25,005 nt of DNA, taken from IMG/VR virus record IMGVR_UViG_3300032820_000105, positions 1 through 25,005 of that record; one strand, 5' to 3'. This stretch comes from a virus. Position numbers and translations under genes: made by a program. The notes beneath the pieces are model-generated. The model ran no database searches and was not told the DNA's origin. It worked only from the letters and a program-made list of their open reading frames with translations. Shown here in pieces: positions 3,273 to 22,719 of this stretch (positions within the stretch are counted from its first letter, which is position 1; every line of letters begins with the position of its first letter).

Positions 3273-3290
3273 TATAGACCTCCTACTTTA

Positions 3291-4538
3291 CTAAAAATCG
3301 CCCCACTCGTAGTCAGGCAACTCCTCAATACTACCATTATTAACTTTCCAGTTCATAACTGTCAAGTCTTTTGCCAACTCTCCATCACGATACTTTTGAA
3401 ATTGGACTAATCTTTTATCGTCCTCATCCTCTAAAGCACACATAGCTAATGCAACATCAGCCGCTCTTATTAAAGCATCACCAAACGCTACTTGGTCGGC
3501 TCTAGGTGGAGTGAACATATTTGCCGCTTCCCTAGTGGCTTGTGTAGACACCATGATTGGAGTGTTGGTTGAGGTAGCTAAATTCTTTAATCCATAAAAC
3601 AGCATATGAGATTGTTCCCATGCAGCTTTACGAGAATCGCCTGTACTAACTAAATAAACACCATCTATAACTACAAACTCTGGATTATGTTTTCGGACCA
3701 ATCCAGCGATGGCTTCTAAAGAAATACCGTTTGTTCCAGAAATATGGTCACATACTAATAAATTCTGTGTATTAGATTCTTCTAAGAATTTAGTATATGC
3801 TTCTTCATCGATTTCATCTCCATGTCGTAAAGCCCTATGAGATAAGTCATACCCCATCATCTTTGCTAATACCACATCAAGCCTCATATTAATCGACTGA
3901 GAGGGCATTTCGGTAGAAATAAGTAAAGTTTTATGTCCATGAAAGACAGATGTAGCCGCGGCATGAACACATAGCCAAGTTTTTCCAATCGTTGGCCTAG
4001 CAAACATAGCTATTAATTCGCCCGGATTCCATCCCACGCCTGTATTGTTGATGGTTTTAAAGCTTGTAGGAACTCCCATCAAGCCATCTCCCATCTTTCT
4101 CTTCTGAGTTCGTTCACGCCACTCTTCTAATCGAGTAAGATTACCTTCATCATAGGATTGAACATCCTCATCATAAACAACTTCAATATCGGTAAGTCCT
4201 ACCATTAAAGCAGATAAGGCTTCTTTAGGATTCTCTTTTATCTTTTCTTTTTGGGCTTGAACAGTCTTTACTATAGTTCGATACAGTACTTGTTCTTTAA
4301 AATTCTCAACAGCATAATCAAAGTTTACGGAGTTAGCCGTTTTATCTAAGAGAGGGAAATTTTCACAAAGGGTGTCGGTTGAAGGGAACTCACCATATTT
4401 ATCAAAGTGATTAATAACGAAGCTATATGCATCACCATGTCTAGCAAAATCTTTTTGAGTATGCTTAAATGACCGTAAATTCGTCTTATTGTCTAAATTT
4501 AATATTAATGCTGATTCTATATACTCGAAACTTGGCAT
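3291..4538 (-). CDS. Replicative DNA helicase, DnaB/RecA-fold
   Basis: This 415-residue protein is a ring-shaped 5'-3' helicase expected to unwind phage DNA ahead of the polymerase. The RecA-like ATPase motifs are all visible: Walker A ARPTIGKT (residues 180-187, the DnaB-type form), LISTEMPSQ near 206-214 with the catalytic Glu, Walker B FVVIDG (288-293), STQ near 331-333, and a KYRDGE arginine-finger region near 382-387. The N-terminal 150 residues are helical and would form the oligomerisation collar. The length is close to bacterial DnaB (about 450-470). A strong AGGAGG precedes the ATG at 4538. The gene is followed within 20 bases by a small gene and then primase, giving a helicase-primase cassette. 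Confidence 0.95.
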   Translation of the reverse strand: MPSFEYIESALILNLDNKTNLRSFKHTQKDFARHGDAYSFVINHFDKYGEFPSTDTLCENFPLLDKTANSVNFDYAVENFKEQVLYRTIVKTVQAQKEKIKENPKEALSALMVGLTDIEVVYDEDVQSYDEGNLTRLEEWRERTQKRKMGDGLMGVPTSFKTINNTGVGWNPGELIAMFARPTIGKTWLCVHAAATSVFHGHKTLLISTEMPSQSINMRLDVVLAKMMGYDLSHRALRHGDEIDEEAYTKFLEESNTQNLLVCDHISGTNGISLEAIAGLVRKHNPEFVVIDGVYLVSTGDSRKAAWEQSHMLFYGLKNLATSTNTPIMVSTQATREAANMFTPPRADQVAFGDALIRAADVALAMCALEDEDDKRLVQFQKYRDGELAKDLTVMNWKVNNGSIEELPDYEWGDF

Positions 4539-4775: not shown

Positions 4776-5181
4776 TAGTCCACTCCCTAAGTTTGTTCAA
4801 TACTTCTTTTCGTTTAGTCTTTTGAGAAGCTGAAGGTAACCATACAGCATCTAAGAACATAAAAGAACGATATAATTTTTTAATTTCTGGTGTTCCATAT
4901 CGTTTCACATACCAATAAACATCCGGGTGTGGGACTAAGTAATATTTTATCCCAGCCGCAAAATATGGAACATTAACGGTTCTATCATTATTATTAATGC
5001 AGTTTAGAATCGCACAAGCTGTAGCACTTGACCCATGAAGATTTAGAACTTCTTTAAGTTTGTGCATTTCATTACCAATGAAACCGACTCCCTTATACTC
5101 TCTTCCATACTTATCATAGTATAAAGTACCAAATAAAGAATATAGTTCTTTAGCATTAAGGTTACTGATGTTTAAATTCAT
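4744..5181 (-). CDS. Unknown protein, possible replication accessory factor
   Basis: This 145-residue soluble protein is encoded between the sigma-like gene and the helicase cassette. It is rich in Tyr and Asn, with an N-terminal helix (NAKELYSLFGTLYYDKYGREY), a middle HGSSATACAILNCINNND segment and a basic C-terminus (KTKRKEVLNKLREW). The ATG at 5181 overlaps the sigma-like gene's stop by 20 bases and has only a purine-rich stretch (GAGAGAAG) at a longer distance, so translation is probably coupled. I do not recognise the family and see no catalytic motif. A helicase loader or initiation factor would fit the position, but the sequence does not show it. Confidence 0.7.
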   Translation of the reverse strand: MNLNISNLNAKELYSLFGTLYYDKYGREYKGVGFIGNEMHKLKEVLNLHGSSATACAILNCINNNDRTVNVPYFAAGIKYYLVPHPDVYWYVKRYGTPEIKKLYRSFMFLDAVWLPSASQKTKRKEVLNKLREWTNAKTSKTNEG

Positions 5182-5686
5182 CGGACAAATTTACAAACTT
5201 CTCTCGTAAGGTTTGACGTACCTTATAAGCACTCTCACCTAAGTCTTCGGTAATCTCTTCCATGGTCATACCTTCTAATTTTAACTGAATAAATGTTTTT
5301 TCTTTCTCAGATAATCCCTGAGAATTAATCCATAAATCAGCCTCAATCTCTGCCATCTTTACTTCGGGTCTTGAGTCCACCAAAGCCTTCGCCAAAGAAA
5401 GAGGAAGTTGTCCTGACTCTGGAAAGACATTATCTAGACTTCGTTGTTCGGGTTGTCGTTGAGCCTTGCTTATTAAAGTACGAATTGTGTTAACTAAAGA
5501 AGTGTGTAAATAAGTATGAAAAATAACCCCACGACTATCATCGTAGGCTTTAGCAGCTTTTAATAATGATATTCTTAGTTCTTGGGCGATGTCTTCTCTA
5601 TCCATCCCTATAACAAAAGAATTAGATACCATCTTCTGTATTTTGGGTTCCCATTGCCTAATTAAATCATCATTTATTTCTATCAT
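5162..5686 (-). CDS. RNA polymerase sigma-70-family-like protein
   Basis: This 174-residue protein has the layout of a small sigma factor. Residues about 30-75 (REDIAQELRISLLKAAKAYDDSRGVIFHTYLHTSLVNTIRTLI) match region 2, which binds core RNA polymerase and the -10 element. Residues about 124-165 (LSEKEKTFIQLKLEGMTMEEITEDLGESAYKVRQTLREKF) match region 4, a helix-turn-helix. The two are joined by a divergent linker of about 50 residues. Such phage sigma factors (T4 gp55, SPO1 gp28 and gp33/34) redirect host polymerase to middle or late promoters. The ATG at 5686 overlaps the preceding gene by 17 bases, with GGAAA upstream. A non-sigma HTH regulator of the same fold is the main alternative. The shared AGTATAATA motif in structural-gene gaps is a candidate target. 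Confidence 0.8.
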   Translation of the reverse strand: MIEINDDLIRQWEPKIQKMVSNSFVIGMDREDIAQELRISLLKAAKAYDDSRGVIFHTYLHTSLVNTIRTLISKAQRQPEQRSLDNVFPESGQLPLSLAKALVDSRPEVKMAEIEADLWINSQGLSEKEKTFIQLKLEGMTMEEITEDLGESAYKVRQTLREKFVNLSDEFKHQ

Positions 5687-6159: not shown

Positions 6160-6573
6160 CTATTCTACAGCAACGGTTATGCTTTTCGGCTTCGCTTCCT
6201 CTGCTTTTGGTAAGATGATAGATAAAATACCATTTTTATACATAGAAGAAATTTCCGCTTCATCTACACCATATTGGCTAATATTAGGAATGGTTCTCTT
6301 ATATGAAAAATCTTTTAGACCTCTCAAAAGATATGTGCCTGCGCCCTCATCAGCCTTGGTAGCAGTACTTATTGCTTCTATATGTAGACTATTATTTTCA
6401 ATTGTTACCGTGAGGTTTTCTTTATTTACTCCGGGAACAACTACTTTCACTTCATATTCATCATCTCTTTCAATGATATCCATAGGAAATGAGGTTTCGG
6501 TGGTTGCAAAAGGCATCCACTTTGAATTCATAATTTCGTCTAAATCACGAAATATAGGGTTTCTCTGTAACAT
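6160..6573 (-). CDS. Small heat shock protein, Hsp20/alpha-crystallin family
   Basis: This 137-residue ATP-independent chaperone holds unfolding proteins in a refoldable state. The alpha-crystallin domain spans roughly residues 28-123: it opens with FPMDIIERDDEYEVKVVVPGVNKENL, has the conserved NSLHIEA strand, and closes with NGILSIILPK, the family's GVL signature. The C-terminal tail carries an I-x-V motif (ITV, residues 132-134), which docks neighbouring subunits in the oligomer. The N-terminal arm is short. GGAGG lies eight bases before the ATG. The gene opens the leftmost gene block after an 86-base gap that holds inverted repeats and an AGTATA-type motif, so it may have its own promoter. 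Hsp20 genes occur in many aquatic phages, where they may help virion assembly or protect the host machinery during infection. Confidence 0.95.
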   Translation of the reverse strand: MLQRNPIFRDLDEIMNSKWMPFATTETSFPMDIIERDDEYEVKVVVPGVNKENLTVTIENNSLHIEAISTATKADEGAGTYLLRGLKDFSYKRTIPNISQYGVDEAEISSMYKNGILSIILPKAEEAKPKSITVAVE

Positions 6574-7035: not shown

Positions 7036-7686
7036 TCATACTCTTCTAGGTATTCTAACTTGGTGGATTTCCTCTTCTCCATCAAAAGCGATGGGGGTAG
7101 CCCCCTTTAACCAAGCTTTTAACCATAGTCTTATATCACCTTGCATAGGAAGGGGAACTCTTTCTTTAGCTACTTGTTCTACTAGCCATTCCTTATCCCA
7201 ATTGGGTCCGGGGTCATGTAATCGAGTCATAGGACAAATGTCTCGATGACCAATTAAAGTTTCCTCGTTAATAGTCATATCTTGTTCATCAGCAAGCCAA
7301 CTAAGAATTTTCAAACATGATTCGTGTTGTGCTTCATTCCATGACGACTCGCTAAAGCCTTCAGCTGCTATACCAAGAGTGTATCCATTAGGATTTGTTC
7401 CTCTATAAGCTTTCCAAGGAACGCCTACGGATGGGTGATTCGTAGCATCAACTCTTCCAGCATGCCATGCAGCTCTATCTATTGGTACATATTGTGTGAT
7501 GCTACCGTCTAATCCTATTACGAAATGATAAGATGCTTGATTAACAACAGGGCGTTCTTTAGCCCAATCATTCATCGTGTTTTTCCATCCTTCCATAACA
7601 TGACATACAATAGCAATTGGTGTTATCTTTCCATAGCCTCCCATAGCTGCGGTCTGAAGTTTCGATGCTTCCGGCATCCAAGTCAT
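7036..7686 (-). CDS. N-acetylmuramoyl-L-alanine amidase (Amidase_2 endolysin)
   Basis: This 216-residue enzyme cuts the bond between N-acetylmuramic acid and L-alanine in peptidoglycan, releasing progeny phage. The Amidase_2/PGRP fold is clear: the first zinc-ligand His lies in IVCHVMEGW (H29), followed by the conserved SYHFVIGLDGSITQYVPIDRAAWHAG strand pair (about 52-76). Then comes GHRDICPMTRLHDPGPNWD with H147 and D158 as likely ligands; there is one residue more between them than in AmpD. The last 45 residues are basic and amphipathic and may help reach the wall. No signal peptide and no adjacent holin are visible. AGAGGA precedes the ATG at 7686. It could instead act as a virion-associated lysin, but its position after the tail genes fits an endolysin. 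Confidence 0.93.
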   Translation of the reverse strand: MTWMPEASKLQTAAMGGYGKITPIAIVCHVMEGWKNTMNDWAKERPVVNQASYHFVIGLDGSITQYVPIDRAAWHAGRVDATNHPSVGVPWKAYRGTNPNGYTLGIAAEGFSESSWNEAQHESCLKILSWLADEQDMTINEETLIGHRDICPMTRLHDPGPNWDKEWLVEQVAKERVPLPMQGDIRLWLKAWLKGATPIAFDGEEEIHQVRIPRRV

Positions 7687-13369: not shown

Positions 13370-14494
13370 TTACCAGAATTTGAATTTACTCGCAACAGAA
13401 CCAACTGCATCACCTACGCCATCTAATACAGCCCCAGAAATATCAAATCCATCACTACCACCATCAATAGGCAAGCGATGACCATCTTTAAAGACAGTCA
13501 CTTTAACATCCATTCCTTTTTGTTGCATTTGTCGTTCTCTATCATTTATAGCTTTTTGGGCAGTTGCTATACTTCCTTCCATACTAACGCCCGGAATCAT
13601 ATGAATACCTTTAAAGAAAATTAATTTAAATTTATCCCATAACAGCATAAATCTATCCCACATACCCCCAAGCCAATTCTTAAATCCATCCCATCCAGCT
13701 TTAAAGCCTTCGGTTAGATTAGAAACAAAGTTAGTAATAAAATTCTCAATTGTTTCTAACCAAGGCATTTTTTCTTTCATTTTGTCCCAAAGCGCGGATA
13801 CTAATCCTCCAAGAAACCCAAAAATTTCTCCGAATATTGCCCATTGTAGTTCAAACCAAGCTTTTCCAATTTCCCAAGCACCACTTAGAATGGTTCCCCA
13901 AAATTCTCCAGAAAACAATATACCAAATGCACTTTTTACACCCTCTAATAATAAATCTAGCAGCTTGCTAATTGCTTTAATGGCTAAATCTTTAATCATT
14001 TGTATCTTTTCAGAAAATCCTGCTCTGAAAAATGCCCCAAGCCAATCGGCTACTTTCTGTCCCATGGCGGCAGCGTGTGGTACACCTCTCGCCATCCACG
14101 TTATTAATTTAAACATAGTAGGCATCATTGGGGCTAAGAATGCATCAATTAATGCACCTACGACTTGGAATATTGCACCAAGGAATCCAGTAAATAACTG
14201 AGACTGTTTCAACATACCAGCCACGGTGAAAGAGACGCCCATCTGCTTTTGAGCCATTTTCATCATGCCTTGCCCTTGCTTAAACATACGTTTAGGACCA
14301 TCGATGAGGGCTTTCATTCCCTTCTTTTCATCGGGAGATTTGCCAGCAGATTTCATTACTCTACTAGCACCACCTACTAGTTGTCCGGCCCCAGCACCAG
14401 CACCGCGCGCCATTGCACCTGCGCCCATAGCACCTATTTTACCGGCGGTAGCTAACGCTCCACCCATAACTGCACCAAGTAACGGTAGTGGCAT
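13370..14494 (-). CDS. Tape-measure-like protein (short)
   Basis: This 374-residue protein directly follows the tail assembly chaperones, the standard position of the tail tape measure. It has a Gly/Ala-rich hydrophobic N-terminus (first 45 residues), a basic helix (KKGMKALIDGPKRMFKQGQGMMKMAQKQMG), a long hydrophobic helix-rich region (about 93-140, QSQLFTGFLGAIFQVVGALIDAFLAPMMPTMFKLITW) and a Trp/Phe-rich amphipathic region (about 200-300). It ends in a small soluble tail. Tape measures set tail length and may insert into the membrane during DNA entry. At roughly 0.15 nm per residue this would give a tail of only about 55 nm, so the tail is short or part of the length is set otherwise. A pore-forming tail component is an alternative. 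The stop of the preceding gene is one base upstream of the ATG codon. Confidence 0.72.
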   Translation of the reverse strand: MPLPLLGAVMGGALATAGKIGAMGAGAMARGAGAGAGQLVGGASRVMKSAGKSPDEKKGMKALIDGPKRMFKQGQGMMKMAQKQMGVSFTVAGMLKQSQLFTGFLGAIFQVVGALIDAFLAPMMPTMFKLITWMARGVPHAAAMGQKVADWLGAFFRAGFSEKIQMIKDLAIKAISKLLDLLLEGVKSAFGILFSGEFWGTILSGAWEIGKAWFELQWAIFGEIFGFLGGLVSALWDKMKEKMPWLETIENFITNFVSNLTEGFKAGWDGFKNWLGGMWDRFMLLWDKFKLIFFKGIHMIPGVSMEGSIATAQKAINDRERQMQQKGMDVKVTVFKDGHRLPIDGGSDGFDISGAVLDGVGDAVGSVASKFKFW

Positions 14495-14495
14495 T

Positions 14496-14735
14496 CTATA
14501 AAGACCTCATACTAGTAGCAAGACGACTATTAGCAGCTTGTTTAGCTTGTTCATCTTCCTCTCGTTGTTGTATAGCCATTTCAATTCCTAATATTAGTTG
14601 TATTTCTTCTTCTGAAAAATTCATTACTGACTCCCACGATATTCCTAACTTTAGCAATTGAAGAATAGTATGCCAGTAGGAAAAGAGGAGTATTTCATGA
14701 GGATGTACATCACTACTCCCCCTCATGAAAGCCAT
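14496..14735 (-). CDS. Tail assembly chaperone, C-terminal (T-like) part, reached by -1 frameshift
   Basis: This 79-residue frame begins at an ATG overlapping the stop of the previous gene (TAATG). Read in the -1 frame, codons from the previous gene's A7 run continue directly into it (AGG GTA ATG), so it need not start on its own. The product would be a 206-residue fusion, as in lambda G-GT. The sequence is helical and acidic in the middle (MNFSEEEIQLILGIEMAIQQREEDEQAKQAA), typical of T-like chaperone ends, which bind the tape measure while the N-terminal part binds the tail tube protein. It sits immediately before the tape-measure-like gene, as expected. Independent translation from AAGGG just upstream cannot be excluded. 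Confidence 0.88.
   Translation of the reverse strand: MAFMRGSSDVHPHEILLFSYWHTILQLLKLGISWESVMNFSEEEIQLILGIEMAIQQREEDEQAKQAANSRLATSMRSL
14693..14730 (-). promoter_or_regulatory. Stem-loop downstream of the slippery site (frameshift stimulator)
   Basis: On the transcribed strand TTTCATGAGG and CCTCATGAAA form a perfect ten-base stem around an 18-base loop. A G-U pair could extend the stem, and the loop itself contains the ten-base palindrome GATGTACATC. The stem begins ten bases after the slippery run, close to the usual 5-9-base spacing for stimulators. Confidence 0.85.
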
Positions 14736-15115
14736 TACCCTTTTTTTATGTTTTGGGCAGCTTGTCCATCACCAGCAAATGCCGTAGGAACAAGATTTTC
14801 TAAAGCTGTTCCAAGCCTCTCGTCAATTGAGATTAAGAACGCTTCAGTTGTTCTACCCCAAGGGGCTTCCACAATCATTTCCTTCAAACACTCTCTAATA
14901 TATAAATCGCCATTAAAGGAACTTTCGCCATTCTTGCCCCACTCAAGACATTTGGAAACCAATTGGTTTCGTCTTGTCCAAGCAAGCTGTTTGACTGTAA
15001 GTTCAAATTCATCGCCTGTTTCTGGAATTGTAACTGTTTGTACAACTGTCTCAGGCGTAATTTGATATTTACTAACATCAAACGTCTTTCCTTGGTCTTT
15101 ACTTTCCTCTGTCAT
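14735..15115 (-). CDS. Tail assembly chaperone, N-terminal (G-like) protein
   Basis: This 126-residue soluble protein follows the tail tube gene and precedes the short T-like frame and the tape-measure-like gene, the invariant order of the tail chaperone pair in long-tailed phages. It has a beta strand pair near the start (VVQTVTIPETGDEFELTVKQLAW) and a helical second half (RNQLVSKCLEWGKNG and LYIRECLKEMIVEAPWGRTTEAFLISIDERLGTALENLVPTAF), matching the general layout of such chaperones. Its last codons are ATA AAA AAA GGG TAA, giving a slippery A AAA AAA site. Most ribosomes would stop here; a fraction would shift and make the longer fusion. GGAGG lies five bases upstream of the ATG at 15115. 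Confidence 0.88.
   Translation of the reverse strand: MTEESKDQGKTFDVSKYQITPETVVQTVTIPETGDEFELTVKQLAWTRRNQLVSKCLEWGKNGESSFNGDLYIRECLKEMIVEAPWGRTTEAFLISIDERLGTALENLVPTAFAGDGQAAQNIKKG
14741..14747 (-). other. Programmed -1 ribosomal frameshift site (A AAA AAA)
   Basis: The transcribed strand has seven A bases whose zero-frame reading is A AAA AAA, the canonical X XXY YYZ form: the first A is the third base of ATA and two AAA Lys codons follow. GGG and the stop codon TAA come next. A -1 slip allows full re-pairing of both tRNAs and enters the 79-codon frame through AGG GTA ATG. Confidence 0.9.
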
Positions 15116-15139: not shown

Positions 15140-16897
15140 TTATGGATAAAATGCTTCATTATCCCTTACCACAATTCTTAAATTCCTAAACATCATATCT
15201 GCATCTATCTGCATTGGATTGTCTGTTGTAACATTGTGGGCAGCTGTATTTATATACAACCCACCCGTATCAATACCAGAAGCAGTACTTCCTGCAGTTC
15301 CTGCGGCAATACCACCCGATGCATAATGTTGATATGGAATATCAATTATAATGTAATCATCGGTTCCTCTATCAAAGCGTAATTGGCAAGACATCCCTTT
15401 GGAGCCTGTTCCATAGTCGCCTTCTAAGAGTAATTGTTTGAACAATTCCATTGCAGTATCTTGGTCAGTAGCATCGGGTGCTGCTGAATCAGGTAATGAA
15501 ATGGTAGCAGACATAGAGTACTCTCGTTGTCCTTCTCGTATTTCATAAGGACCCCTTGCTCTATTTCCTTGTCTACCAATATAATATCTAGGTTCTGCCC
15601 CATTTCCAATAGAAAGGGAAAAACTTCGTACTCGTGCAAACTCTGTTCCAAAAAACTTAATAGTTCCTTGTGAGAAATAATATGGTTGTGTACTTGGGTA
15701 GCCAGTTCCAGCATTTGCTGCTCCGGCTGTTTGGCTTGGCATACCAACATCTTGTGCATCAATTGGTTGCATTAAGCCATATCGTGGCATATTGTGGGTG
15801 ATAGAAGCACCATTATATAAATTAGTGCCTACATCAGTTTGATTTTTTTGGTTGTGAACCATATTCAAGAAGTTCACGCCATCCCATGACATTGAAACAA
15901 TTCCACCTTCTTCGGCTGAAATTGTAGTCGAATCAATCATTCCACCTACATAGCGTCTATCGAAAGTATTAGTTTCTGCACTATCCAACATGTGAACATG
16001 CCATGAAACTGTATCTAAATCAGTAGTCTCAATAATTTCATGTTCCCAATAAGTAGGGGCAGACGAATGTGTTTTAACATTTACTCCATTAGCATGGTCA
16101 AATGATAACGGATAATTTAATTTTGCTACGTTAGTAGAAGGAAATGAATCTATTCTTCGTACTTCTGTAGTTTTCGTAGCATTGTTCGTATTTGCCGAAC
16201 TATCGTAGATAGCAACTGTTGTATCTGCAGAGATACCGTGAGAAGAACTAAGAGTAATATAGACATCCCCCTTCTTTGCTGCGGCGCCAAGAGTAGCTGA
16301 ACCACTCCCAGCCGATGCCGGAGTTGTTGTAACTTTACCGATTGGGAATCGTAGTGGCCATCCATTCAATAGAAGAATATCACTAACGGACCCAGTAAGA
16401 GTCTGTTGACCCGGATAGGCAACCGACCAATTCCTTTTAGAAAGGGTATTTAAAAATCTTCGTCCTTCCATGGACATTTCGGGGTCAGGAGTATCAATTG
16501 TCTCATAAACTCCGGGAATCCACGAAACAAATTTAGCTTTATCGTTTCTAGTGGCATCCCCACCAATAGCAGTTATTTCAACCGCTGCAGCACCACTTGG
16601 ATGATAGAAGGCTGTAGGTCTATCAAGAACAAAGGTAGCACCATCAATTAATTCAATTTTTCTTGCTTCGTGTTCATCTGTTGTTGTAGCACCACTCACA
16701 TCCCCAATACGAACTGTATCACCCACTACAAACCCTGTTGCAGAGGCTACAGTTATCGTCCTACTTCCTGCGTTATGTGCAGCAGACAAAGTAGTAGAGG
16801 CAGAACCAGAGGTTCCCTCTATAAATTCGGGGTCACCCCCTTGTGCCGCTTCCACGGCAAATGTCAATTGTGCTTGGTCACTTCTAAATACAGCCAT
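15140..16897 (-). CDS. Major tail tube protein with inserted beta modules
   Basis: This 585-residue protein is larger than usual tail tube proteins (about 150-350 residues). Its ends look like a tube domain: MAVFRSDQAQLTFAVEAAQGGDPEF at the start, FVSWIPGVYETIDTPDPEMSMEGRRFLNT near 123-151, and near the C-terminus IKFFGTEFARVRSFSLSIGNGAEPRYYIGRQGNRARGPYEIREGQREYSMSATI. Two related inserts lie at about 34-108 and 198-277, each with an I-T-V/L strand, a GD-TV or DTTV turn, an arginine-rich strand and a closing P-L/T-x-F-x-H-x-(S/N)-G loop. They probably project from the tail as decorations. Its place, right after the tail terminator gene and before the chaperones, supports the call. GGGAG lies seven bases before the ATG and a TATAAT-type motif about 36 bases before it. 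Confidence 0.83.
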   Translation of the reverse strand: MAVFRSDQAQLTFAVEAAQGGDPEFIEGTSGSASTTLSAAHNAGSRTITVASATGFVVGDTVRIGDVSGATTTDEHEARKIELIDGATFVLDRPTAFYHPSGAAAVEITAIGGDATRNDKAKFVSWIPGVYETIDTPDPEMSMEGRRFLNTLSKRNWSVAYPGQQTLTGSVSDILLLNGWPLRFPIGKVTTTPASAGSGSATLGAAAKKGDVYITLSSSHGISADTTVAIYDSSANTNNATKTTEVRRIDSFPSTNVAKLNYPLSFDHANGVNVKTHSSAPTYWEHEIIETTDLDTVSWHVHMLDSAETNTFDRRYVGGMIDSTTISAEEGGIVSMSWDGVNFLNMVHNQKNQTDVGTNLYNGASITHNMPRYGLMQPIDAQDVGMPSQTAGAANAGTGYPSTQPYYFSQGTIKFFGTEFARVRSFSLSIGNGAEPRYYIGRQGNRARGPYEIREGQREYSMSATISLPDSAAPDATDQDTAMELFKQLLLEGDYGTGSKGMSCQLRFDRGTDDYIIIDIPYQHYASGGIAAGTAGSTASGIDTGGLYINTAAHNVTTDNPMQIDADMMFRNLRIVVRDNEAFYP

Positions 16898-18514: not shown

Positions 18515-20599
18515 CTACGGTTTTGTAGTAACACCGACTAATAGTTTATTAGCAGCGATTGCTACGCCAACCTTGGCACCCGTGGTCGCTGTTGTAGAAA
18601 GTTCGCCACCACCCGACAGATAATAGAGCGCTCCGGGAGTTAGTCCAGTCACATTCTCATTTAATCCACCAGAAACGGTAATTGTGGCTTCTGCACCACT
18701 ATTAACGGCAGCCGTATTTACTCCGATATATGCATCTGAATTTACAATTGTCCCAAATGCAGTTGCGTCAGTAACAATTACTTTGTGTCTTTCTGTACCA
18801 CTAGCAGTACCACTAGTTCCAATATGGGTTAATACAAACCCACTATCTGGGTCATATACTGCTTGTTGTAATCCTGCTTGAACTTCCTCATCTTCCCCAA
18901 CTGCGGGAAATTCTGGAGCGTCAGATTCCGTATCCCAAGCATTCTCAAGTGTAAAGGTTGTTCCACTTAGTGAAATGTCATAGAATTCAAACTTACCCGT
19001 TCTATAATCGCCCGACAGTATAATTCTATTCCTTGCCGTATCATATACCAAAGGCGAATGATTAGGGCCACTCCATGCTTGAGAAGAACCATCATTTTTT
19101 ACATACGCAGGTAATCTCCAAATTGTTCCCCACGAAACAGTCATCCCAGAAGTAGCTGCCGATGAAACGGTTCCCGCAACAAAATATTGGTCTAGGGTTT
19201 CATTGGTAACCTTCCATGTCATAATCACTTTATCTTGGTCGGGGTCATAAAGCATTCTAATATATTTTGGGTAATAATGTATAGTCCCACTATTGATAAC
19301 TCTATTTTCAGCATTTGCTTGACCCGTGTTTGGACCAGCCCTGTCAAATGAAGAATCATTGACTCTATACATAATATGATAACGAGGATATAGGTAATTC
19401 CAGATATTATAACCAATAATTATTCGTTCTGTATCAGGGTCCCAAACACAATCTGCATTTTGAACTGCATCAAATTCTATAATTGAACCAGATTGTTTAG
19501 CAGTAAGAGTATTATCAGAGTTTATTTGGACTAAGCTATAGCATAATCTACCATAGTTGTTACTAGTTGTTCCATTTGTTTGGTCAGCATGTAATATAAA
19601 AACTTGGTCGTAATCAGTACCACCACTACTATAACTCACATCTATGGCTCTATGAGTATTTAAATCGTAATCGATATTCCCAAAAAAACCATTATCAATA
19701 GTTTTTACGGCCGCTTCTCCTGTATTAAAATTATCTGTATCAGTATTACCATTATTTGCGTTATACATTGTGATGTTACTACTAGAATCAACAGAAATAG
19801 TTAGTGCATTGAAGTTATTACTATCTCCAATACTTCTATAACCAACAAAATGTTTTGACGCAGTAGGAATATGGCAAGTTACAATATCGTTTGAACCATC
19901 AGAGTTATCCGAAAATACGCATTCTGTTCCCCATGTTATTTCCCCAGTAGTGGCATTTACATCACCAGCTTTGACCATTCCGTATCTATACATAGAACCC
20001 GGATGTCTCCAAAAGACTAATACTTTGTCAAATTCGGGGTCGTAACTGATATTAACACTTCCACCAGTTCCATCAGACTCAACGGTGCTATGTTGTAAAA
20101 AGCCTCCAGTTGCGACATGCACAGCATTTCCAGAAGAATTAACCACCACAGGTTTTCCTGCAGTTAGGTTTTCTCCCGCGGTTATTTTTATCGAACCTCC
20201 ACCAGAAGCTTCAGCCCACTTTGTACCAGTTGCTGTTGTTGAATCGGCAGTTAAAACATAAGCATCTGTTCCAAGAGAAAGTGCTTGAGGATTTCCTGAA
20301 CCATCCCCTATTAATATTGCCCCTTTAGCAGATAGGTCTACAGTAGCGACAGCATTTGTAGCATTTCCAATAAGAACACCATTAGCCGTGAATGCAGTCG
20401 TACCAGTTCCTCCCGCAGCCACACTTAAAGTGGTAGCAAGGGACTCTGAAGTCATAGCATTCCATGAGTCGGTATCCCACTGGAAAAGTTTATTTGTGTC
20501 TGTCTCACAAAAAATAGTTCCCTTTTCGCCAGCTGTTAGCGTAGGTTTTGTATCACTAGCTAACCCAGAGATTAGAGTTCCTAAATATTGTATCGCCAT
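18515..20599 (-). CDS. Fibre/appendage protein with probable seven-bladed beta-propeller
   Basis: This 694-residue virion protein begins with a 48-residue module (MAIQYLGTLISGLASDTKPTL through FQWDTDSWN) shared with the 386-residue fibre further right, probably a virion anchor. A Gly/Ala/Ser-rich shaft with AAGGTGTTAFTANGVLIGNAT follows. Residues about 185-600 contain seven copies of a YDP-D-x-x-(K/R)-(V/I)-type strand motif: SYDPEFDKVLVFW, a weak HIPTASKHFVGYR, DYDLNTHRAIDVSY, VWDPDTERIIIGY, LYDPDQDKVIMTW, VYDTARNRIILSG and VYDPDSGFVLTHI. They are spaced 58-75 residues apart, as expected for propeller blades. The C-terminus (GLTPGALYYLSGGGELSTT) resembles small beta domains of other fibres. 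Receptor or glycan binding is likely but not shown. GAGGT lies upstream of the ATG. Confidence 0.8.
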   Translation of the reverse strand: MAIQYLGTLISGLASDTKPTLTAGEKGTIFCETDTNKLFQWDTDSWNAMTSESLATTLSVAAGGTGTTAFTANGVLIGNATNAVATVDLSAKGAILIGDGSGNPQALSLGTDAYVLTADSTTATGTKWAEASGGGSIKITAGENLTAGKPVVVNSSGNAVHVATGGFLQHSTVESDGTGGSVNISYDPEFDKVLVFWRHPGSMYRYGMVKAGDVNATTGEITWGTECVFSDNSDGSNDIVTCHIPTASKHFVGYRSIGDSNNFNALTISVDSSSNITMYNANNGNTDTDNFNTGEAAVKTIDNGFFGNIDYDLNTHRAIDVSYSSGGTDYDQVFILHADQTNGTTSNNYGRLCYSLVQINSDNTLTAKQSGSIIEFDAVQNADCVWDPDTERIIIGYNIWNYLYPRYHIMYRVNDSSFDRAGPNTGQANAENRVINSGTIHYYPKYIRMLYDPDQDKVIMTWKVTNETLDQYFVAGTVSSAATSGMTVSWGTIWRLPAYVKNDGSSQAWSGPNHSPLVYDTARNRIILSGDYRTGKFEFYDISLSGTTFTLENAWDTESDAPEFPAVGEDEEVQAGLQQAVYDPDSGFVLTHIGTSGTASGTERHKVIVTDATAFGTIVNSDAYIGVNTAAVNSGAEATITVSGGLNENVTGLTPGALYYLSGGGELSTTATTGAKVGVAIAANKLLVGVTTKP

Positions 20600-20954: not shown

Positions 20955-21248
20955 TTATTCTTTTGTTACAACGCCAGAAATTTTCAGAGTTTGCCAATAC
21001 CCGTTTGCAGTTAATCTGAACTGGTTGTTAGTGCCACTTTTAACAAATACCTTTGAAGATAAATTGTGTACTGTCAGGTTATTGTTGGCAATGTTATAAG
21101 CAATATTATTATCAGTCACAGATTTTACGTACCATGTACTAGTACTCCAGACAGAAGTAATACACCACTCAACCCCACTAGAGGGTTGAAAATCATAAGA
21201 AGTACTACTTGTGTATGCTTCCATTACTATTGCATCGCCAGCTGCCAT
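20955..21248 (-). CDS. Small virion-like protein, paralogue of its upstream neighbour
   Basis: This 97-residue protein is a tandem paralogue of the 98-residue protein encoded three bases upstream. Both start MA-x-GD, share DFQPSSGVEWC-(I/L)-TS near residues 18-31, alternate aromatic strands, and end in SG-(V/I)-VTKE. The compact beta-rich pattern with many Asn, Ser, Thr and Trp suggests a small surface or fibre-tip protein, perhaps a lectin-like fold, but I do not recognise the family. The Cys in VEWC is conserved between the two copies and is the only Cys here. AAGGAAT precedes the ATG. The middle parts of the two copies have diverged strongly, which could reflect pressure on an exposed surface. 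Confidence 0.8.
   Translation of the reverse strand: MAAGDAIVMEAYTSSTSYDFQPSSGVEWCITSVWSTSTWYVKSVTDNNIAYNIANNNLTVHNLSSKVFVKSGTNNQFRLTANGYWQTLKISGVVTKE
21163..21195 (-). repeat. Conserved 33-base block, copy 1
   Basis: This block matches 21463-21495 at 30 of 33 positions, exactly 300 bases away. It encodes DFQPSSGVEWC in the paralogous pair. It includes a perfect six-base inverted repeat (CAACCC and GGGTTG) with a seven-base loop, which may be incidental to the coding constraint. Confidence 0.75.
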
Positions 21249-21251
21249 AAT

Positions 21252-21548
21252 TTATTCCTTGGTTACAATCCCAGAATAACGATAATAACCATTACCTCCT
21301 TGATTAAAACGTATCTGAGTACTATTAGTCACAAAAATTTTACATGCTTGTTCTGTACCAGTACCAGTTCCAAATGTGTTATATGTACCTTGACCGTATA
21401 ATGTATAATTCCAAGATAAATCTCGAAAAACCCAAGATGTGGTAGACATAAATGAGGTTAAGCACCACTCAACCCCGCTGGAGGGTTGGAAATCAGTATT
21501 ACCACCACCGTTAAATCCATATGCTGCTACTACATCTCCAACTGCCAT
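21252..21548 (-). CDS. Small virion-like protein, tandem paralogue
   Basis: This 98-residue protein is encoded directly before its 97-residue paralogue. Shared landmarks are MAVGD at the start, DFQPSSGVEWCLTS near 19-32, a Lys-(V/I)-FV strand near 70, an NGY turn, and YSGIVTKE at the end. The centre (SWNYTLYGQGTYNTFGTGTGTEQ) is Gly/Thr/Tyr-rich and differs from the neighbour. It lies directly downstream of the 386-residue fibre, so the pair may cap or decorate that fibre or form a separate small spike. AAGGAG precedes the ATG. Function unknown. Confidence 0.8.
   Translation of the reverse strand: MAVGDVVAAYGFNGGGNTDFQPSSGVEWCLTSFMSTTSWVFRDLSWNYTLYGQGTYNTFGTGTGTEQACKIFVTNSTQIRFNQGGNGYYRYSGIVTKE
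21463..21495 (-). repeat. Conserved 33-base block, copy 2
   Basis: This is the second copy of the block found at 21163-21195, differing at three positions, all A or G on the plus strand. It encodes the same DFQPSSGVEWC core in the upstream paralogue. Confidence 0.75.
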
Positions 21549-21558
21549 AATTTACTCC

Positions 21559-22719
21559 TTATCCGAAAGCCATTGTTAAAGGTAAAGATACTCCACCACC
21601 AGAAGATGAAAGTTCTACTTCCGCTACATCTGCCGAATTGTAATACAACTTACCGTCATTTTTAACATATATATGACCACCTTCACCATCTGCAGCAGTT
21701 GCTACACTTCCATATTCACCGGCTAATTTTATATAAGTTCCAATACGTACTCCACCTTCTCCTTTAAGCCTTAATTGTTCAGTTCCTTCGGCTGTTTCTG
21801 AGAGAGCAGTAGCAAAAACCATATCAGTCTCATTAGAAGTAGTTGAAAAAGTATTAGCGGCTTCCATTCGGATTTCGCCATAAGTTAATTGAGAATCTCC
21901 TCCAGCTGTCATATTAGGGGCAGAAAATCTAATCATATTTAAATCTTGCCCAGCAGATGCTGTTGTAGCATCATTTTGAAAAGACAAAACTGTACCCGTA
22001 AAGGTTGCTCCAGTAGCTGTAGTTTCTAATTTCTTCACATTGTTGTGGTAGAGGTCTACCGAACCATCTTCCCCCGCATAAATCATTTGTTCAGTATCTG
22101 CGGCATTACGAAGGGTGAATATATTAGTCTTTACTATTAATGCCCCATCTCCAGCATCATGTATATAACTGTTAGTACCATTGTGGTAAATTTGTAAATC
22201 GTTACCGGGCTGACCAAAATAAGCTTTAGCATTATCAGAAAATCGTAAGTTATTCCCTGATGCACCATCCCATTTTATATAACGTCCTGCTGTAGTGCCA
22301 TAAAAAGTGACATCTATACCAGTGCCATCTACTCCAAAATAAGAAGCACCAAGATGGGAAGTAGCCGCTGAGAAGGTAACCGTACCATTTGCAGCAACTG
22401 TTATAGCATCGGTGTCGGAAGCTGAACCTATTGTTCCATCGTCAGCAAGAACAAGATTCCCTAATGTAGGACTAGTAGCTAACGTTACGTTACCACTAGT
22501 TACTGTAAAGTCAGTTGCATTAAATGATGCAAGACCTTTTACAGAATCGGTTGCGTCTGCAATCGTTGGATTCGTTTCATCCCAAGTATCGCCATCCCAT
22601 TGGTATATTTTATCTGTGTTTGTCTCAACAAAAAGTACCCCTCTTTGATTAGCACTCAAAGTAGGTTTTGTGTCGGACGAAAGTCCAGATATATTATTTC
22701 CTATATATTGGATTCCCAT
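21559..22719 (-). CDS. Fibre protein with modules common in aquatic phage fibres
   Basis: This 386-residue virion protein has three visible parts. Residues 1-48 (MGIQYIGNNISGLSSDTKPTL through IYQWDGDTWD) are homologous to the start of the propeller protein and probably anchor it. The middle holds a fibre-shaft pattern near 145-240: NNLRFSDNAKAYFGQPGNDLQIYHNGTNSYIHDAGDGALIVKTN and DGSVDLYHNNVKKLETTATGATFTG, a module recurring in marine phage fibres. The C-terminal 30 residues (KLYYNSADVAEVELSSSGGG then TMAFG) resemble the cut-off gene at the right window edge. The role is probably a trimeric fibre or capsid/tail appendage. AAATCC-type codons lead into the TAATG overlap with the preceding gene. 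Confidence 0.82.
   Translation of the reverse strand: MGIQYIGNNISGLSSDTKPTLSANQRGVLFVETNTDKIYQWDGDTWDETNPTIADATDSVKGLASFNATDFTVTSGNVTLATSPTLGNLVLADDGTIGSASDTDAITVAANGTVTFSAATSHLGASYFGVDGTGIDVTFYGTTAGRYIKWDGASGNNLRFSDNAKAYFGQPGNDLQIYHNGTNSYIHDAGDGALIVKTNIFTLRNAADTEQMIYAGEDGSVDLYHNNVKKLETTATGATFTGTVLSFQNDATTASAGQDLNMIRFSAPNMTAGGDSQLTYGEIRMEAANTFSTTSNETDMVFATALSETAEGTEQLRLKGEGGVRIGTYIKLAGEYGSVATAADGEGGHIYVKNDGKLYYNSADVAEVELSSSGGGVSLPLTMAFG

Follow-up and report, generated by a model that had tools for sequence, protein, structure and literature searches.

Predicted −1 ribosomal frameshifting in the tail assembly chaperone genes of an uncultured phage and its relatives

The 25,005 bases of IMG/VR virus record IMGVR_UViG_3300032820_000105 (positions 1 to 25,005, here called the window) carry on their minus strand two overlapping open reading frames, ORF1 and ORF2, between a tail tube gene and a tape measure gene. 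The locus raises the question of whether ORF2 is translated as a protein of its own or as an extension of ORF1. Our analysis predicts that the two form a G/GT-type tail assembly chaperone pair expressed through programmed −1 ribosomal frameshifting, a reading to which we give a probability of about 0.93.

ORF1 (14735–15115, minus strand) encodes 126 residues, and its ATG is preceded by a strong Shine–Dalgarno (SD) sequence, GAGGAGG. The 3′ end of the gene reads ATA (14749–14747) AAA AAA GGG TAA (14737–14735), which places a slippery heptamer, A AAA AAA, at 14741–14747 in the X XXY YYZ phase. The 0-frame TAA stop (14735–14737) lies one codon past the heptamer and overlaps the ATG of ORF2 as TAATG. 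ORF2 itself comprises 79 codons (14735–14496). After a −1 slip the codons are AGG GTA ATG GCT TTC, continuous with ORF2, so that the −1 extension (14496–14741) would add 81 residues, ORF2 included, and give a fusion of 206 residues (125 + 2 + 79). Of the four A7 runs on the record's coding strand, only that at 14747–14741 is in phase at a gene end. An initial annotation of the window had reported this heptamer and, through AGG GTA ATG, the 206-residue fusion; re-reading confirmed the coordinates, the phase and the fusion. Its broader proposal, a programmed −1 frameshift in a tail chaperone pair, is now backed by 71 junctions, homologue profiles and a predicted fold.

Two scans of viral contigs yielded 102 loci, which together with the window give 71 distinct junctions. 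The patterns used in the second scan sit in ORF1 away from the junction and therefore do not select for the heptamer. A non-redundant set contained 53 sequences less than 80% identical downstream, and a stricter set contained 30. The in-frame A AAA AAA was kept in 69 of the 71 junctions, window included, three of these sites lying inside a run of nine A's (loci L098, L100 and L102). Both remaining junctions carry another canonical −1 heptamer and keep the fusion frame: A AAA AAC in L072 (TTA AAA AAC) and T TTA AAA in L077 (AAT TTA AAA). In all 71 junctions the −1 frame continues without a stop into a homologous ORF2, and the 0-frame stop falls 1–5 codons past the heptamer in all 53 non-redundant relatives.

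The codons at the shift site are also constrained. The codon preceding the lysine pair is, among the 53 relatives, ATA in 27, GTA in 16, TTA in 3, GCA in 3, and ACA, CTA, AAA or AAT in one each; its third base is thus almost always A across differing amino acids (Ile, Val, Leu, Ala, Thr). The shift-site lysine codons are AAA in 104 of 106 cases, compared with 77% AAA usage for lysine in these loci. Under independence log10 P is about −17 for the preceding third base and −12 for the lysine codons, values that relatedness inflates. Because the third base is almost constant while the amino acid varies, and because AAA is over-used at the shift site, the codon pattern points to selection on the RNA.

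ORF1 is a tail assembly chaperone on the strength of gene position, homologue profiles and predicted fold. The pair lies in the order tube–chaperone–chaperone–tape measure. Immediately upstream is the tail tube, or major tail protein, gene (15140–16897, minus strand; PF18906 Phage_tube_2, E 1.1e-10; phrog_290), and immediately downstream is the gene for a tape measure protein of 374 residues (13370–14494, minus strand; phrog_167, tail length tape measure protein, E 8.6e-7). By the usual relation of protein length to tail length, if it applies here, a tape measure protein of only 374 residues would imply a short tail; a contig scan found no relatives of this protein. The profile phrog_25860, ‘tail assembly chaperone’, was matched by 19 of 21 ORF1 homologues (best E 1.7e-6), and PF08890 Phage_TAC_5 was matched weakly by two, with the window protein below threshold. 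An AlphaFold2 model of ORF1 (mean predicted local distance difference test score, pLDDT, 78) resembles the annotated viral tail assembly chaperones R4TKL2 (E 4e-6) and M1I8W5 (E 2.1e-5), and its best fold match in the PDB is YqbN (3klu; E 0.08, probability 0.89).

To assess RNA structure, the fold energy 3′ of the heptamer was compared with that of synonymous recodings that encode the same protein in the −1 frame and follow the codon usage of the locus concerned. Across the non-redundant set (n = 53) the 75 nucleotides (nt) 3′ of the heptamer were more structured than their recodings (mean z −1.55, p 1e-9), and segments 80 and 140 nt downstream showed no comparable excess. The signal peaked in 51-nt segments starting 0–12 nt past the heptamer (z −1.5 at +6, p 1.1e-9) and persisted in the 30-sequence set (p 1.2e-5); these p-values treat the sequences as independent, and shared ancestry inflates them. 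About 40% of members were individually significant at p <0.05. Many members, for example L017, L058, L060, L068, L072 and L074, have a two-tier hairpin beginning 3–9 nt past the heptamer, and a helix at columns 7–14/44–51 covaries, its score being reached in 0 of 500 shuffles. A 3′ stimulatory hairpin is therefore probable, since folding here exceeds that of synonymous recodings and no comparable signal lies further downstream. A second excess of structure was seen inside ORF1, at 14840–14890 (minus strand) and at the same place in relatives, 100–150 nt upstream of the heptamer (mean z −0.85, p 1.3e-5; strict set p 1.2e-3).

In the window itself the downstream structure is also stronger than in recodings (z −2.65), with 1 of 200 as stable. 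The initial annotation had described a perfect ten-base stem starting ten bases past the heptamer, with an 18-base loop. This stem (stem A) is present, its 5′ arm TTTCATGAGG at 14721–14730 and its 3′ arm CCTCATGAAA at 14693–14702 (minus strand), with ten perfect pairs, an 18-base loop and a spacer of 10 nt from the heptamer; the 3′ arm falls in the family helix region, one column out of register. Perfect inverted repeats of 10 base pairs (bp) occurred in 2 of 1248 sampled 60-nt stretches of the record, roughly the number expected from a single repeat when sampling is every 20 nt. The ten-base palindrome GATGTACATC reported for the loop exists as well, except that it takes the first C of the stem A 3′ arm and has only nine bases in the loop. 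Folding predicted an alternative, stem B, with 5′ arm GAGGGGGAGUA at 14714–14724, a spacer of 16 nt, and 3′ arm UACUCCUCUUU at 14682–14692 (minus strand). The two are mutually exclusive and nearly isoenergetic (−14.6 kcal/mol for stem A, −16.3 for stem B), and which is predicted depends on the amount of flanking RNA folded; stem A is better spaced and no more than one column off the family register, whereas stem B is slightly more stable. An H-type pseudoknot, pairing GGGAGTA of the loop with TACTCC past the stem, was considered and rejected, as no linker would be left to cross the 10-bp stem; this pairing and stem A are alternatives.

It therefore appears that the relatives have in common a predicted hairpin at this place and not the exact stem of the window, and that some have none. 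The earlier view of stem A as part of the element holds in that the stem exists; it is not the minimum-energy fold, is one of two exclusive hairpins, and is not conserved. Relatives that lose the A7 run or the stem yet keep both genes had been named at the outset as evidence that would speak against the element. Such relatives were found for the stem, while the slip site was retained. Whether the frameshift of the clade is driven by a 3′ hairpin that is under selection yet changes fast, its presence being kept while sequence, register and pairing turn over, seems to us evenly poised. The two exclusive hairpins of the window may tune the slip rate.

Several observations weigh against the frameshift reading as a whole or against its RNA component. 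The spacers in the window, 10 and 16 nt, are longer than the 5–9 nt commonest in relatives, and two hairpins compete there. Excess structure is absent from L070, L082 and L099, so the hairpin is not universal, and the family helix slid by +1 scores about as well, so its register varies. An SD-like stimulator upstream of the heptamer is not enriched (17% of relatives against a background of 22%). Finally, ORF1 and ORF2 of the window themselves match no PHROG or Pfam family directly, and the chaperone identity consequently rests on the homologues and the fold.

In one rival account the frameshift is real and the 3′ hairpins are incidental, A7 alone setting a low rate, as lambda-type sites have been described without stimulators. 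The three relatives without a hairpin fit such an account, as does the lack of exact conservation of stem A. It explains less well why the excess over synonymous recodings is concentrated in segments starting 0–12 nt 3′ of the heptamer, or why a helix there covaries, and we consider it unlikely while giving it serious weight.

A second account places the slip in transcription: RNA polymerase would add or drop a base on the A-run in some mRNAs, and ribosomes would then translate the fusion with no slip of their own. In its favour, the site is homopolymeric, with nine A's in L098, L100 and L102, and transcriptional realignment is known on A runs with n > 7 (cited in PMC3711429). Most runs here, however, have just seven A's, and a long homopolymer, which transcriptional slippage would lead one to expect in all members, is missing from L077 and L072, where T TTA AAA and A AAA AAC keep the tandem-tRNA slip rule. 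The swap to T TTA AAA in L077 in particular favours tandem tRNA slippage, and selection on downstream RNA structure fits ribosomal stimulation. We regard polymerase slippage as very improbable.

Nor is it likely that ORF2 is made as a separate protein by termination and re-initiation at TAATG, with no frameshift, an explanation to which we attach slightly less credence still. The overlap of the stop with an in-frame ATG, which had been taken to allow both routes to the second protein, is indeed present in the window, as it is in roughly one third of the relatives. Yet ATG, GTG and TTG are all missing from the first 12 codons of the −1 frame in 23 of 53 relatives, which nevertheless retain ORF2 and the heptamer, so the re-initiation route is not conserved even though the overlap stands. 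For the ORF2 ATG of the window the sole SD-like sequence is a GGG at a distance of 2 nt, compared with the full GAGGAGG of ORF1, and the R-V codons ahead of the ATG are conserved as protein. Given how often relatives lack an ATG at that codon, or any start in this stretch, the ORF2 domain appears to be chiefly a fusion domain; re-initiation would at most supplement the frameshift in this phage. A last possibility is that one fused gene was broken by a sequencing or assembly error in the homopolymer, A7 runs being error-prone. Recurrence of the break at 71 distinct junctions across many metagenomes, the 0-frame stop following 1–5 codons on, refutes this, and its probability is practically nil.

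In the frameshift reading, most ribosomes would read ORF1 to its TAA and release the 126-residue short chaperone. A minority, pausing while two Lys-tRNAs occupy A AAA AAA, would move back by one base and read AGG GTA ATG into the 206-residue fusion with a C-terminal ‘T’ domain, the hairpin just 3′ of the slip site probably raising the slip rate. A AAA AAA is a known shift site, and in a reporter study (PMC3711429) frameshifting on an A_AAA_AAA cassette reached 10%, which makes a slip rate of a few to ten percent plausible. By analogy with lambda gpG/gpGT, the tape measure protein would be coated by the N-terminal part, with the T domain recruiting the tail tube protein, and for that reason the ratio of short to long product would matter for tail assembly. 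The chaperones would also be expected to be absent from the virion, as in lambda (PMC5009743).

Other searches helped to place the phage. ORF1 found no relatives among cultured phages by sequence, the PDB sequence search gave nothing meaningful, Rfam and tRNA searches found none, and no related loci were found in 84,980 bacterial and archaeal genomes. The related contigs come from samples that we take to be marine from their dataset numbers. For the tube and chaperone proteins alike, the closest homologues from culture are tail proteins of HHTV-2, a haloarchaeal virus. We considered an archaeal host on that account but rejected it: the window encodes a sigma-70-like protein and an N-acetylmuramoyl-L-alanine amidase (Amidase_2), from which we infer a bacterial host. 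These genes lie at 5162–5686 (sigma-70-like) and 7036–7686 (Amidase_2, an endolysin candidate), and the minus strand also carries genes for an HSP20 small heat-shock protein (6160–6573) and a dCMP/cytidine deaminase (1040–1555). Two likely pairs of paralogues were noted on the same strand, one of long proteins with a common N-terminal ‘QYxGxxISGLxSDTKPTL’ start (18515–20599 and 21559–22719) and one of small proteins sharing ‘DFQPSSGVEWC’ (20955–21248 and 21252–21548).

The class of frameshift is already known, and the clade of the window is a well-supported new case of the lambda G/GT type, not a new kind of system. It matters in that a full tail-chaperone product is identified in uncultured marine phages, where the fusion would escape standard gene callers and the proteins go mostly unrecognized by family profiles. 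It also argues, from alignments, that frameshifting in tail chaperones can come with a 3′ RNA stimulator under selection. A selected hairpin, if true, would depart from the published view that the frameshifts of certain tailed phages lack stimulatory signals.

Among known systems, E. coli dnaX (A AAA AAG, hairpin, upstream SD) shares an A-rich Lys-Lys slip site and, on its 3′ side, a hairpin that is predicted here, but it serves a different gene and purpose, and the window clade has no upstream SD-like enrichment. A likeness to the XkdN/YqbN-type chaperones (PF08890) is suggested by the two weak homologue matches and by YqbN 3klu as top PDB fold, all with weak scores. In Haloarcula hispanica tailed virus 2 (HHTV-2), gp46–gp49 give the same order of tube, two chaperones and tape measure, the second chaperone being in the −1 frame. 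HHTV-2 differs in being an archaeal virus, with about 30% identity over 43% of the query, and in having a junction without an A-rich heptamer; no frameshift is annotated at its gp47 junction and no strong heptamer was found there. At 3290–3320 of that locus gp47 ends GAG GAA AAC TGA, and the −1 frame is open across it.

The arrangement in the window resembles lambda gpG/gpGT in that two ORFs overlap between the tube gene and the tape measure gene, the second in the −1 frame, in the canonical heptamer near the end of ORF1, and in a fusion made of the short chaperone and a C-terminal domain. The heptamer in the window is A AAA AAA, whereas that of lambda G/GT is a different one. Xu, Hendrix and Duda reportedly described in 2004 counterparts of the lambda gpG/gpGT frameshift in long-tailed phages. 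G-T frameshifting is widely conserved in such phages, and in lambda the short product coats the tape measure, the long one delivering tail tube subunits (PMC5009743). Compared with lambda, the 0-frame stop of the window comes almost immediately past the heptamer, and its clade has an excess of RNA structure on the 3′ side.
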